Shown piece by piece: positions 15,050 to 63,590 of a stretch of DNA of 64,000 bases. Every line of letters starts with the position of its first letter. Position 1 is the first letter of the stretch. Source of the DNA: Fodinicola acaciae (GTDB lineage: Bacteria; Actinomycetota; Actinomycetes; Mycobacteriales; HKI-0501); contig NZ_WOTN01000004.1 in assembly GCF_010993745.1 (NCBI RefSeq), forward strand, positions 1,240,001 through 1,304,000. The letters run 5' to 3'. Under the pieces are notes generated by a model. It was given only the letters and a program-made list of their open reading frames with translations, had not been told where the DNA came from and searched no databases. The position numbers and the translations under genes were made by a program.

Positions 15050-15105
15050 ATGCACGCATGGTGGCCATGCGCGCATCCAACGCACGCATGGTGGCCATGC
15101 GCGCA
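15050..15105. repeat. Tandem half-copies of family B (B3)
   Basis: Two direct copies of the right half of a B element (GCATGGTGGCCATGCGCGC) 28 bp apart, at about 15055 and 15083. Each contains its own short palindrome GCATGGTGGCCATGC. They lie between B2 and the next gene. The flank 15106-15215 is a run of GGGCAAGC/GGGCAAGTGGC-type short direct repeats with no open frame of note. Confidence 0.8.
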
Positions 15106-31112: not shown

Positions 31113-31159
31113 CGCATGGCCCCCATGCGTGCGTTGGACGCACGCATGGGGGCCATGCG
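31113..31159. repeat. Family B palindrome, copy B4
   Basis: Perfect 21-bp arms (CGCATGGCCCCCATGCGTGCG and complement) around the loop TTGGA, 13 bp after the exporter stop codon. Relative to B1 and B9 the centre of each arm has C-G where they have A-T, on both sides of the stem. Confidence 0.92.
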
Positions 31160-58529: not shown

Positions 58530-58582
58530 GGTCGCATGGCCCCCATGCGTGCGTTGGATGCACGCATGGGGGCCATGCGTGC
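58530..58582. repeat. Family B palindrome, copy B8
   Basis: B4-type arms (GGTCGCATGGCCCCCATG and complement) with the inner bases GTGC/GCAC and loop GTTGGAT, five bp after the oxidoreductase stop; only the outermost bases of the right arm differ. Confidence 0.9.
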
Positions 58583-58593
58583 TCTCCGATGAC

Positions 58594-58656
58594 AAGGTCG
58601 CTTGACATTAGGTCAAGGTCGCTGTACATATTGTCAAGCGATCTGTACTAGATGAA
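58594..58656 (+). promoter_or_regulatory. Promoter and three 21-bp-spaced operator repeats of the YhfC-XRE operon
   Basis: Promoter: TTGACA (58602-58607), 17-base spacer, TACATA (58625-58630). Three imperfect direct repeats begin AAGGTCGCT (58594), AAGGTCGCT (58615) and AAGCGATCT (58636), 21 bp apart, i.e. two helical turns; the first two agree at 16 of 21 positions. CTTGAC/GTCAAG (58601-58617) is an inverted repeat across the -35. The layout suits cooperative binding of the operon's own small XRE regulator. Confidence 0.7.
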
Positions 58657-58669
58657 AGGGGTGGGGCGG

Positions 58670-59422
58670 ATGAGCACACCTGCTCTGATGGCCTTTGTGG
58701 TGGCGGCGGTGGTGGCCGGTCTCGGCGCGCCGATTTTGGTGACAGCGCTGCGAAAGCGGCTGCGCGTACCGATGACGGTCTTTTTCGTCGCCGCCGGTTT
58801 CTATCTCCTCAACCTGCTGATCCAGCAGCCGATTTTCCTTGGCGTACGCGCGTTTCATCTCAACGGCGTGGTGGTGACTGGCCTCATCGCACCGGCGATC
58901 TACGCGGTGTGCGAGGAGTCGATGCGCTATCTGAGCTTTCGCGCCGGCCGCAAGATGCGCGACAACCGTACGCCGAACGGCGCGGTCGTCGCTGGCCTCG
59001 GCCACGGCGGCGCGGAGGCGCTGCTCTTCACGCTCGGCATGGTGGCGAGCGTCGCGACGGCGGTGCTGGCGCCGCAGATGTTCGCGGCCAACGGCGGCGA
59101 TCCAAACGCGATCGTGCATGGCGGCCCTGGTTATTACCTGCAGTTCGCGTTGAGCCGCGTGCTGGCGGTCATCGCGCACACTGGGTTCGCGACGATGATC
59201 ATGCTCTCCTACCGGCAGGTTCGCTGGCTGCCGGCGGCGATCACCGCGCATTTCGCGGTGGACGCGAGCGTTTTCAGCCTGCAGGGCGTGTTGCCGGCGA
59301 GCAGTCCGGTGCCGGATCTGGTGTTCGCCGGCTGGGCCGCGCTGGCGATCGTCCTGCTGGTGGTCGTACGGCGGCGACCGGTGGCGGTCGAGCTTGGGGA
59401 GATCGCGAGGATAGGGTCATGA
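58670..59422 (+). CDS. YhfC-family putative intramembrane metalloprotease
   Basis: A 250-residue protein with about seven membrane helices and the YhfC pattern: AVCEESMRYLSFR (Glu-Glu-x-x-Arg), GLGHGGAEALLF (His plus Glu), AHTGFATMIM and TAHFAVDASVF. The family is related to CPBP-type membrane proteases by these motifs; substrates are unknown. ATG 58670 has GGGG about eight bases upstream; an ATG at 58652 has no ribosome site. Its stop overlaps the next gene (ATGA). Confidence 0.82.
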   Translation: MSTPALMAFVVAAVVAGLGAPILVTALRKRLRVPMTVFFVAAGFYLLNLLIQQPIFLGVRAFHLNGVVVTGLIAPAIYAVCEESMRYLSFRAGRKMRDNRTPNGAVVAGLGHGGAEALLFTLGMVASVATAVLAPQMFAANGGDPNAIVHGGPGYYLQFALSRVLAVIAHTGFATMIMLSYRQVRWLPAAITAHFAVDASVFSLQGVLPASSPVPDLVFAGWAALAIVLLVVVRRRPVAVELGEIARIGS

Positions 59423-59793
59423 AATCACTGGCGTACGTCGTCCAGGTGCTGGTGCTGATGGTGGTCGTCTATCCGGCGTTGCTGCTGCTCGTGCTGTGGA
59501 TCGCACCGCCTGGCGCGAGCATGCCGACCCGGTATGCGGTGTCGGTCCTGCCGGCGCTGCCGGTCGTCGGGGTGGCGCTGGTGCTGCTGCGCTGGCTGCG
59601 GCAGGCCGACGAGCTTGAGCGGCGCATCCAGCTGGATGCGCTGGCTTTCAGCGGCATCGTCACGATGCTCGGCGGCGGTGCGTACGTGATGCTCACCGGC
59701 CTGCCGGCGTACGTGCTGGTGACCGCGTTCTTCCTGCTCTGGGCCGTCGCGGTCGCGGTGCGCAGGATGTGGCTCGGGCGAGGCGGCGAATGA
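59419..59793 (+). CDS. Small integral membrane protein of the YhfC-XRE operon
   Basis: A 124-residue protein with four hydrophobic segments (starting LAYVVQVLVLMVVVYPALLL) and a charged cytoplasmic stretch RWLRQADELERRIQLDALAF between them. Similar small membrane proteins are often encoded before short XRE regulators. Overlaps both neighbours by ATGA, so all three are translated together. It may hold or sense through the regulator, or be the substrate of the protease; both are inference. Confidence 0.78.
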   Translation: MKSLAYVVQVLVLMVVVYPALLLLVLWIAPPGASMPTRYAVSVLPALPVVGVALVLLRWLRQADELERRIQLDALAFSGIVTMLGGGAYVMLTGLPAYVLVTAFFLLWAVAVAVRRMWLGRGGE

Positions 59794-59978
59794 GAAACCG
59801 GCTGCGCGTGCTGCGAGCCGAGCGCGGCTGGTCGCAGGCCGAGCTCGCCAAACGCATCGAGGTCTCGCGGCAGACGGTCAACACGATCGAGAACGGCCGC
59901 TATGATCCGAGCCTGCCGTTGGCCTTCACCATTGCCAAGGTGTTCGGCCTCACCATCGAGGACATCTTCGAGCCCTAG
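59790..59978 (+). CDS. Short XRE-family regulator (62 residues)
   Basis: Single Cro/CI helix-turn-helix with no other domain: RLRVLRAERGWSQAELAKRI, SRQTVNTIENGRYDPSLPLA, then AKVFGLTIEDIFEP. Very common type in bacteria and archaea, usually autoregulatory and paired with a membrane protein, as here. Likely binds the three repeats at 58594-58656. Confidence 0.9.
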   Translation: MRNRLRVLRAERGWSQAELAKRIEVSRQTVNTIENGRYDPSLPLAFTIAKVFGLTIEDIFEP

Positions 59979-59992
59979 GGTCGAAACAGACC

Positions 59993-61636
59993 CTAAGCCC
60001 AACATTCCCACGAGTCTTTGTCGTAGAAGTCCTGGAAGCGGCTGATCGCGCTGGAGTTGTGGTAGGTCAGCCGGCAGGCACTCTGCCCGTCGATTCCGTC
60101 AGATGCGTTGGCGCAATACCACCCGTACGCGTCGCGGCCCTGGACGTAGGTGGCGCCGGAATGGCCGGTTGCCCGGCAGTACGCGGAAAAGTCCAGCCGG
60201 CCGAGCTTGCCGTTGGCCTGCCAGCACTGCCAGCTGTGCGGGTCGCTGAAATCGGCGACCCGGTTGGTGAGGTGGCGGGAGTGGTAGGTCCACGCGCAGA
60301 CCGCCTGGGCGTCGTCGCCAGTGCCGTTGTCGGTCGAGCAGCGCCAGCCGTACGCGTTGTTCGCGACCAGTTTGACCGCCCCCTGACCGGTGGCCCGGCA
60401 ATAGCCGTCGAAATCCGGTGCGCCCAGCTGGACGACCGCGACCCGCGCGGGCGGGCTGGATGACGGCGGCGGCGAGGATGCGGTGAGGGCCTCGGCCATC
60501 GGCGACGGGCTGGCGCTCGGGGTTGGGGACGCGGGCGGTGTGGGGCTGACGGTCGCGCTGGGCGGCGGCGCGGAATGGCTGGCCGGGATGGGGTGCGGTC
60601 CGACGATCACCGCGGCGGTGCCGGCGACGATCAGCAGCGCCGCCGCGAGGCTCGCCATCAGGACCGCTCGCGGGCGCCAGTTTTTCCTGTCGGGGCTGGG
60701 AATCTCCGTGGTGTCCGCCGGTGGCTCGGCGGGCAGGACGGCGGCATACCGGACGGCGTCCTCGAGCGGTCCGGGCAGCCACTCGACCATCCCGCTCGGT
60801 GCGTACGCCGCGAGTGCCGGCACGATTTGTGCGGCGGCCGGCCGGGCGGCCGGATCCTTGCGCAGCCCGGCGGCGATCAGGCCGGCGACGGGGTTGTCGT
60901 CCAGCCGGCTCAGCGGGCCGAGATCCGGCTCGCCGTGTACGACGCGGTAGAGCACCGACTCGGGCCGGCCGTCGCCGAAGGGCGGCGTGCCGGTCCACGC
61001 GTAAGTGAGCACCGCGGCGAGCGCGAAGATGTCCGCCGGCGGCCCGACGCGGCCCGCGGTGGCCTGTTCCGGCGGCATGAACGCGGCGGTGCCCAGGTGC
61101 AGCCCGGTGGCGGTCAGCTGGGTGCCGTGCAGGACTTGGGCGATGCCGAAGTCGATCACCCGCGGGCCGTCCGCGCAGAGCAGGACGTTGGAGGGCTTGA
61201 GATCGCGGTGCACGATGCCGGCGTCGTGCAGCGCCGCGAGCGCCTCGGCGATGCCGGCGGCCAATGCGGCGACGGTGGCGGCCGGCAGCGGCCCGTACGT
61301 CCGCACCGCCTGTTCGAGCGTCACTCCCGGCACGTACTCGGTGGCCAGCCACGGTTGGCCGGCCTCCAGGTCGGCATCCACCAGCGGTGAGATCCGCGGG
61401 CTGGCGACCCGGCGCAGCGTGGCCAGCTCGCGGCCGAACCGGCGCCGGAACACCGGCACGTCGGCCAACTCCGGCCGGATCACCTTCACCGCGGCCACCG
61501 CCCCGGTGCCGACGTGCCGCCCCAGATACACCCGGCCCATGGCGCCGCTTCCCAGCCGGCCGAGCAGCGCGTACGGTCCGACCGCCGGTGGGTCGTCGTT
61601 GAGCAGTGGCATCGGTCCGAAGTCGGGCTGCCCCAC
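59993..61636 (-). CDS. Transmembrane Ser/Thr protein kinase with tandem Cys-rich ectodomain
   Basis: A 547-residue Hanks-type kinase: Gly loop LGRLGSGAMGRVYLGRH, Lys in VAAVKVIRPE, catalytic HRDLKPSNVLL, DFGIAQVL and the P+1 segment GTAAFMPPEQA. After one membrane helix (about 325-345) comes a Pro/Ser linker and two repeats of about 65 residues, each with four Cys in the pattern YCRATG, YGWxC, xCxxTYH, SWxCW. GTG start with GGAGG six bases upstream. The ectodomain probably senses an extracellular ligand. Confidence 0.92.
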   Translation of the reverse strand: MGQPDFGPMPLLNDDPPAVGPYALLGRLGSGAMGRVYLGRHVGTGAVAAVKVIRPELADVPVFRRRFGRELATLRRVASPRISPLVDADLEAGQPWLATEYVPGVTLEQAVRTYGPLPAATVAALAAGIAEALAALHDAGIVHRDLKPSNVLLCADGPRVIDFGIAQVLHGTQLTATGLHLGTAAFMPPEQATAGRVGPPADIFALAAVLTYAWTGTPPFGDGRPESVLYRVVHGEPDLGPLSRLDDNPVAGLIAAGLRKDPAARPAAAQIVPALAAYAPSGMVEWLPGPLEDAVRYAAVLPAEPPADTTEIPSPDRKNWRPRAVLMASLAAALLIVAGTAAVIVGPHPIPASHSAPPPSATVSPTPPASPTPSASPSPMAEALTASSPPPSSSPPARVAVVQLGAPDFDGYCRATGQGAVKLVANNAYGWRCSTDNGTGDDAQAVCAWTYHSRHLTNRVADFSDPHSWQCWQANGKLGRLDFSAYCRATGHSGATYVQGRDAYGWYCANASDGIDGQSACRLTYHNSSAISRFQDFYDKDSWECWA

Positions 61637-61794: not shown

Positions 61795-61884
61795 ATGGAC
61801 GACACTTCGGAGCCGATCGGCTGGTTGGTCATCGGCGTCTTGCTGGCGCTGGTCGCCGGTGGTCTTTTCTGGATCGCGAGATGA
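61795..61884 (+). CDS. 29-residue single-pass membrane protein
   Basis: Tiny open frame: acidic start MDDTSEPIGW then one membrane helix (LVIGVLLALVAGGLFWIAR). Its stop overlaps the next start codon (ATGA), matching the coupling used through the rest of the operon, which supports translation. No clear ribosome site. Function unknown. Confidence 0.5.
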   Translation: MDDTSEPIGWLVIGVLLALVAGGLFWIAR

Positions 61885-62198
61885 GCGCGCCGGCACCGCT
61901 ACCGCGACCGTCCACTGTGGACGCGATGGTCGGCGTACGGCTGGATCCCCGTTGCCGCTGGGACGACTTCGACGCGTTCCTGTGCACCGAGCCGGTCGTA
62001 CGCGAGGCGTGGCACCTGGCCGGCGACGTCGACGTCGAGTTTCGGCTCAGCTGTGCGGACCTGCTGGCGCTGCGGGCATTCCTCGGCAGGCTGCGCGGTC
62101 AACGGGCGGTCGAGCATGTCGCGGTCGGCATGATCCTGCGCCCGGTCACCAGCCTCGGCCGGCCACGGCTGGTCGGCATCGCGGGCGGCCGGTCATGA
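61881..62198 (+). CDS. Stand-alone Lrp/AsnC ligand-binding (RAM) domain protein
   Basis: A 105-residue protein matching the RAM domain of Lrp/AsnC regulators without the DNA-binding half: FDAFLCTEPVVREAWHLAGD, VDVEFRLSCADLLALRAFL and a final strand GMILRPV. Such domains bind amino acids and form rings. Coupled to lysA by ATGA, it may sense lysine or diaminopimelate, or regulate LysA directly; inference. Confidence 0.75.
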   Translation: MSAPAPLPRPSTVDAMVGVRLDPRCRWDDFDAFLCTEPVVREAWHLAGDVDVEFRLSCADLLALRAFLGRLRGQRAVEHVAVGMILRPVTSLGRPRLVGIAGGRS

Positions 62199-63543: not shown

Positions 63544-63590
63544 CGCATGGCCACCATGCTTGCGTTGGACGCAAGCATGGTGGCCATGCG
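63544..63590. repeat. Family B palindrome, copy B9
   Basis: Perfect 21-bp arms (CGCATGGCCACCATGCTTGC... and complement) around TTGGA, between the convergent lysA (stop 63535) and IclR (stop 63594) genes. Compared with B1 the arm has T-A where B1 has G-C, changed on both sides. Confidence 0.92.

Follow-up and report, generated by a model that had tools for sequence, protein, structure and literature searches.

A YhfC-family gene in one operon with a small membrane protein and an XRE regulator in Fodinicola acaciae

Gene order and promoter region of the operon

The window, that is the whole 64-kb stretch of DNA analysed here, comes from the 8.86-Mb genome of Fodinicola acaciae (four contigs) and contains an operon of three genes on the plus strand at 58670-59978, which confirms the observation made in the first-pass annotation. 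The genome has eight WhiB genes, a family associated with actinobacteria that among 14 control genomes was detected in Corynebacterium alone, and this points to an actinomycete. The first gene (58670..59422) codes for a predicted intramembrane protease of the YhfC family (PF10086) with 250 aa, the second (59419..59793) for a membrane protein of 124 aa with four hydrophobic helices by hydropathy, whose relatives are found with an adjacent XRE gene, and the third (59790..59978) for a predicted XRE repressor of the CylR2-like type with 62 aa. ATGA overlaps link YhfC to the membrane protein at 59419-59422 and the membrane protein to XRE at 59790-59793, as had been annotated. For YhfC, the start codon at 58670 was preferred over that at 58652, since a leader rich in G stands before it and the gene of the congener starts at the aligned position.

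Upstream of the operon three direct repeats with a period of 21 bp begin at 58590, 58611 and 58632. They had been recognized in the first-pass annotation, and each of them also reads as an imperfect palindrome, either TGACAAG-N4-CTTGACA or TGTCAAG-N4-CTGTAC. Only copies one and two were reported by the repeat finder; the third was obtained from the consensus scan. Operator 1 (58590..58607, TGACAAGGTCGCTTGACA) matches TGWCAAG-N4-CTTGWCA without mismatches, as the sole such match in the whole genome, and its right half contains the perfect -35 hexamer TTGACA (58602-58607). Operator 2 (58611..58628, GGTCAAGGTCGCTGTACA), which overlaps the probable -10 region, and operator 3 (58632..58649, TGTCAAGCGATCTGTACT) show two mismatches each to TGWMAAG-N4-CTTKWCA; the palindromes are listed without a strand. 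When the window was scanned with the later consensus, allowing up to two mismatches, three sites were obtained, exactly the three repeats.

A probable promoter was read by eye at 58602..58630 on the plus strand, consisting of TTGACA, a spacer of 17 bp and the hexamer TACATA, which is weak and lacks the final T. The promoter scan called no site in the region upstream of the operon. The earlier description of a good promoter holds for the -35 hexamer, but not for the second hexamer.

The single other genome of the genus in a sample of 101 genomes (G001) keeps the trio in the same order at the locus L003, together with all three operators at the same spacing and the TTGACA of operator 1, whereas the preceding DNA has diverged. 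The overlap of the first two genes is replaced there by a gap of 10 nt, but order and operators are kept. Thus both the gene overlaps in the window and the conserved arrangement in the congener speak for one coupled operon, as had been proposed. (The rows L005 and L020 represent the same place as L003, and L018 the same gene as L015; the rows L001, L002, L021, L050-L052, L061 and L069 are the window itself and were left out of all counts.) The YhfC frame of the congener is broken once, which in a draft genome of 74% completeness points to an error or to decay. About a third of the YhfC residues differ between window and congener, and the dN/dS ratio is 0.28 in one part of YhfC and 0.33 in the other, 0.44 in the membrane protein and 0.23 in XRE, compared to 0.14 in a portion of the oxidase gene upstream. 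Judging from these ratios, the operon is under purifying selection.

Two further differences between the genomes concern the flanks of the operon. Between the upstream oxidase gene and the operon promoter lies a member (58533-58579) of a hairpin-forming repeat family built on GCATGGNNNCCATGC, which is absent from this place in the congener. This family has 11 matches in the window, with 0.01 expected, eight of them in four pairs at a distance of 30 nt and the other three single (58533-58579, 15056-15100, 31114-31158 and 63545-63589, besides the single copies). Directly downstream of XRE, a Ser/Thr protein kinase gene is located on the minus strand at 59993-61636. This gene has been gained or lost here, since the congener runs from XRE straight to the next, apparently syntenic small gene (2821-3150 of L003, corresponding to 61881-62198 of the window) with no kinase between.

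Features of the three proteins

The first protein reached 38.6 bits (1.1e-9) with the Pfam family PF10086, above the curated cut-off of 24.2. It shares with the family both this membership score and the residues E82, E83, R86, G109, G111, H112, G113, G114, E116, R163 and H194, which are invariant in 13 aligned proteins from several phyla, and it carries the family motifs EExxR, GxGHGGxE, R and HxxxD. D198, present in over 90% of this 13-sequence alignment, is kept as well. A 2026 paper describes the YhfC membrane proteases as a little-known family (PMC13096917). For the AlphaFold2 model of the protein (pLDDT 83.3, pTM 0.80), Foldseek gave no match among solved structures with an E value of 0.001 or lower. 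With VIA-align, it was superposed on 5a63_C (Z 20.1, 3.6 Å, 212 residues), on chain 6 of the multipass-translocon complex 7tm3 (Z 18.5, 3.5 Å, 212 residues) and on Rce1 (Z 7.1, 3.5 Å, 141 residues), the last at a level that may mean only a common helical arrangement. We take 5a63_C to be Aph-1 of gamma-secretase and chain 6 of 7tm3 to be TMEM147; neither Aph-1 nor TMEM147 is known to be proteolytic.

The XRE protein matches HTH_3 with 63.3 bits (2.1e-17). Its recognition helix, which we assume from the HTH fold to be VSRQTV, contains the residues VSRQ that are invariant in 11 aligned XRE proteins. The nearest solved structures are a PbsX-family regulator (9k3w) and CylR2 (1utx), the latter with an E value of 1.4e-12 for the single sequence (phmmer) and of 1.7e-21 for the profile. 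Assignment to a toxin-antitoxin system as a HipB/Y4mF antitoxin was rejected, the 42.6 bits obtained with TIGR03070 being far below the cut-off of 71.65. A defence system or island was likewise rejected, as neither YhfC nor the membrane protein matched any model of PADLOC-DB at E 0.01; XRE matches 19 of the models, over the HTH.

The membrane partner has no Pfam match above cut-off, and none to DUF2178, DUF1648 or SdpI, so that membership in DUF2178 was rejected. Its central loop RQADELERRIQLDALAF is similar to those of related proteins and might be the part that contacts XRE.

An XRE regulator paired with a small membrane protein is a known kind of switch, to which YhfC is an unusual addition. 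According to two reviews, CylR2, the cytolysin repressor of Enterococcus faecalis, binds the promoter, and induction requires CylR1, for which three helices are predicted and a membrane location is suspected (PMC3709268, PMC5454873). The window pair resembles CylR1/CylR2 in combining a small XRE with a small membrane protein; CylR2 represses a promoter, which is also the predicted role of XRE in the window. The likeness of the partners is one of description, and the partner in the window has four hydrophobic helices instead of the three predicted in CylR1. Furthermore, the window pair shares its operon with a protease behind three operators, and the operon has no toxin genes. The cytolysin operon controlled by CylR2 also includes, according to the same reviews (PMC3709268, PMC5454873), a protein with transmembrane domains and a putative metalloprotease motif, the immunity protein CylI. 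The second system for comparison is SdpR/SdpI of Bacillus subtilis, an autorepressor with a membrane protein that confers immunity and is reported to sequester SdpR at the membrane (PMC1626106).

Occurrence of the pair, its operators and YhfC

The first-pass annotation had called the pairing of XRE with a small membrane protein common, and the CylR1/CylR2 precedent as well as related pairs across the phylum samples bear this out. In the order sample (order and phylum samples are the database groupings around the source genome), relatives of the membrane protein were found in 10 of 200 genomes, the window and the congener included. At all eight other loci (L022-L029) XRE lies directly behind the membrane protein and one to three palindromes lie upstream of the pair; at several of them one palindrome holds TTGACA and another covers the start codon. 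Altogether, 28 sites with up to two mismatches are present in 12 upstream regions (window, congener, the eight order pairs, the paralogue and the Leptolinea plasmid described below), compared to a mean of 0.05 and a maximum of 2 in shuffled sequences. Since the consensus used for this count was drawn partly from the same sites, the held-out test on the phylum sample matters (396 genomes, up to ten candidates scored per genome, 12 matches outside the own genome fetched). There, sites were found at nine of nine pair loci, representing at least nine pairs, and at none of three non-pair loci (L077, L078 and L080), which have no XRE and long unrelated frames. One of these pairs (L079) has its sites about 370-390 bp upstream of the membrane protein gene, and a short ORF other than YhfC lies in the interval (1063-1456 in reverse-complemented coordinates). 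This hints that the position of YhfC in the window can be occupied by other genes.

The operator was found also on plasmids, where five XRE loci were hand-picked from 40 listed of 496 matching records. Four of the five have two or three sites each (Pseudomonas, Arthrobacter, Staphylococcus xylosus and Streptomyces), whereas the Priestia locus has no site, a changed recognition helix and no adjacent membrane protein. The Streptomyces pair is annotated as XRE/DUF2178 and has operators of the form TGTAAAG-N4-CTTGACA. It is thus of the same kind as the pair in the window, where, however, the partner has no DUF2178 match and the two genes stand in reversed order. On a Pseudomonas aeruginosa plasmid (L084 2130-2707), an XRE 78.7% identical to that of the window belongs to a pair with two TGTAAAG-N4 operators without mismatch, and adjoins a non-ribosomal peptide synthetase gene.

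The source genome itself contains a paralogue, its second-best XRE match (C2:290428), which has a small membrane protein of its own downstream, with four hydrophobic segments, and two operators directly upstream, TGTAAAGCGCACTTGACA and TGTAAAGCCTACTTTACA. The former is letter-identical to a site before the XRE gene of a Leptolinea plasmid (Chloroflexota). The operator code can be written as TGT[CA]AAG-N4-CTT[GT]ACA, with variants. Since the operator is conserved across phyla, the three repeats are very probably, on comparative grounds, the operators on which XRE acts. A scan of the source genome for a wider regulon gave 16 palindromic places with up to two mismatches versus 22 for a control pattern, so no regulon can be claimed beyond the operon locus and the paralogue.

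YhfC has a different distribution. PF10086 was detected in 13 of 296 genomes of the phylum sample, namely in the own genome and in 12 of one distant family, and a profile search detected this type of XRE at none of 16 YhfC loci of that family (14 from this sample and two more). Conversely, the YhfC profile detected no YhfC at the 17 other pairs (eight from the order and nine from the phylum sample), nor at the paralogue and the five plasmid XRE loci, within a range of up to about 1.5-3 kb on each side of the pair. This profile misses L016, a weak broken match, and the window protein alone misses distant YhfC proteins. Since 17 of 17 other pairs with the same operators lack YhfC by profile, the pair does not need the protease.

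A scan of genome contigs gave at least 12 YhfC loci, and among those listed only the Leptolinea plasmid has this type of XRE (1 of 12; L033 and L038, which come from one record, were counted once). Its order is XRE, membrane protein with a weak DUF2178 match below cut-off, a gap of 212 bp, and YhfC. Because YhfC stands 212 bp behind the pair and no operator was found in front of it, co-regulation is uncertain on this plasmid. In the plasmid collection, YhfC occurs in three records, those of Leptolinea, Ruminococcus albus and Burkholderia arboris. In R. albus, whose record names the protein a glutamic-type intramembrane protease, YhfC heads and overlaps a gene for an SdpR-family autorepressor that is followed by a DUF1648/SdpI membrane protein, with two inverted repeats in the promoter region; no such pair was seen at the B. 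arboris plasmid locus. The R. albus arrangement is an SdpR/SdpI-type pair headed by YhfC, but its SdpR is of the ArsR type and the repressor of the window belongs to HTH_3/XRE, with no family in common.

The coupling of YhfC to such a pair, proposed in the first-pass annotation, therefore recurs outside the window in the congener and on a Chloroflexota plasmid, and the survey did not refute it. As far as gene neighbourhoods tell, the association is rare, yet it recurs with unrelated repressors. No published operon joining YhfC to an XRE/membrane protein pair was found in the open-access literature, in agreement with the earlier remark that the addition was not recognized as described; the same open-access search found nothing on XRE with an intramembrane protease, on this operator or on DUF2178.

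Searches with the window proteins themselves gave little. The single YhfC protein of the window found no relative in the contig scan (101 stretches), plasmids searched with the YhfC and with the membrane protein of the window gave no match, and neither did the search of phages or that of viral contigs with the alignment A5. Among viral contigs one YhfC locus is present (L083), with no adjacent pair and with phage-type XRE genes kilobases away. The sole outside match of YhfC in 394 class genomes was dismissed as chance, as the frame reads as another membrane protein, and the weak match L004, which lies in a long low-complexity frame, was dismissed likewise.

Other neighbourhoods of YhfC were noted in addition. 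In Oscillospiraceae (L034 122-2093 and L035 4914-6816), YhfC stands in a row with genes for a small membrane protein, a protein resembling ribbon-helix-helix proteins (below the Pfam cut-off in L034, the locus scanned), an SdpI-domain protein and an ABC transporter. The YhfC domain is fused in one frame to an ABC-2 permease in Chloroflexota (L039 4947-6506, by Pfam), apparently also in L042 (4761-6332, Chloroflexota), which is similar in length and helices, and to an ABC ATPase in a Myxococcaceae bacterium (L041 4872-6560). These fusions suggest a link of YhfC with export.

Possible function of the operon

We hold it somewhat probable that the operon is an autorepressed membrane switch which took on a membrane protease as its output. 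An XRE dimer would bind the three operators, which follow each other at intervals of two helical turns, and in covering the -35 and the -10 region would keep expression of the operon low. The four-helix partner would sense a change in the membrane and pull XRE off the DNA, as SdpI does with SdpR and as is assumed for CylR1 and CylR2. Derepression would then raise the amounts of YhfC, whose gene comes first, and of the two switch proteins, which would reset the switch. The substrate of YhfC would be a peptide or protein in the membrane. Self-protection is the most plausible purpose, since SdpR/SdpI and CylR1/CylR2 govern immunity to a membrane-active toxin or a toxin operon that includes immunity, and one of the two has a predicted membrane protease under its control. 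By this analogy, the role of YhfC is perhaps self-protection against membrane-active peptides; counting against it, the operon has no toxin or peptide gene.

The first-pass annotation had placed YhfC within the switch, as a protease that cleaves the four-helix protein or frees a membrane-held XRE, cleavage being the signal. The conserved family-invariant residues agree with this, as do the overlap of the YhfC gene with that of a possible substrate and the position of YhfC next to repressor/membrane protein pairs of two unrelated repressor families. Nevertheless, a switch run by proteolysis appears unlikely, as pairs with the same operators lack YhfC at eight of eight order loci, nine of nine phylum loci and the own paralogue, most YhfC loci lack the pair, and XRE, with its 62 aa, has no membrane segment. 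Since elsewhere the pair exists in the absence of YhfC, comparison of these loci makes YhfC more likely the output of the switch than its trigger.

The same rarity in both directions (0 of 17 pairs with YhfC, and among the at least 12 listed YhfC loci only that of Leptolinea with XRE) counts against YhfC as output too, as do the broken frame in the congener and the best folds being those of proteins not known to be proteolytic. It could mean that YhfC was captured by chance and shares the promoter with no functional link to the switch, since among the genomes sampled the setting occurs in one genus of the phylum only. A captured gene is, however, difficult to reconcile with order and operators kept between congeners whose YhfC proteins differ in about a third of their residues at a dN/dS of about 0.3, or with the parallel associations in Chloroflexota and Bacillota, and we regard it as quite unlikely. 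A non-proteolytic role of YhfC in the membrane, as scaffold or chaperone in the manner of Aph-1 or TMEM147, would fit its best folds (Z 20.1 and 18.5, compared to 7.1 for Rce1) but is very improbable, as the Glu, Arg and His positions that do not vary among YhfC proteins are all kept and the R. albus record names a glutamic-type intramembrane protease.

Returning to the protease as output of an autorepressed switch, the associations outside the genus allow a broader, tentative reading. It is possible, although we remain doubtful, that autorepressor modules which sense the membrane have repeatedly acquired YhfC proteases as their output, by independent coupling to XRE/four-helix pairs in this genus and in Chloroflexota and to SdpR/SdpI pairs in Ruminococcus, and that these proteases provide a protease-armed, inducible self-protection against membrane-active peptides. 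If true, this would give a function to the scarcely studied YhfC protease family. The setting differs from that of B. subtilis, where yhfC is reported to belong to the FapR lipid regulon (PMC3536700) and not to an XRE operon. Since YhfC stands here behind a promoter with three operators and has the repressor and a probable sensor as operon mates, the locus offers a direct experimental handle, and the inducer of the operon would be what calls for the YhfC protease. Moreover, the operator code lets genes under a widespread class of repressors be read from sequence; among the 40 of 496 matching plasmid records that were listed, repressors of this class are mostly annotated only as helix-turn-helix regulators.
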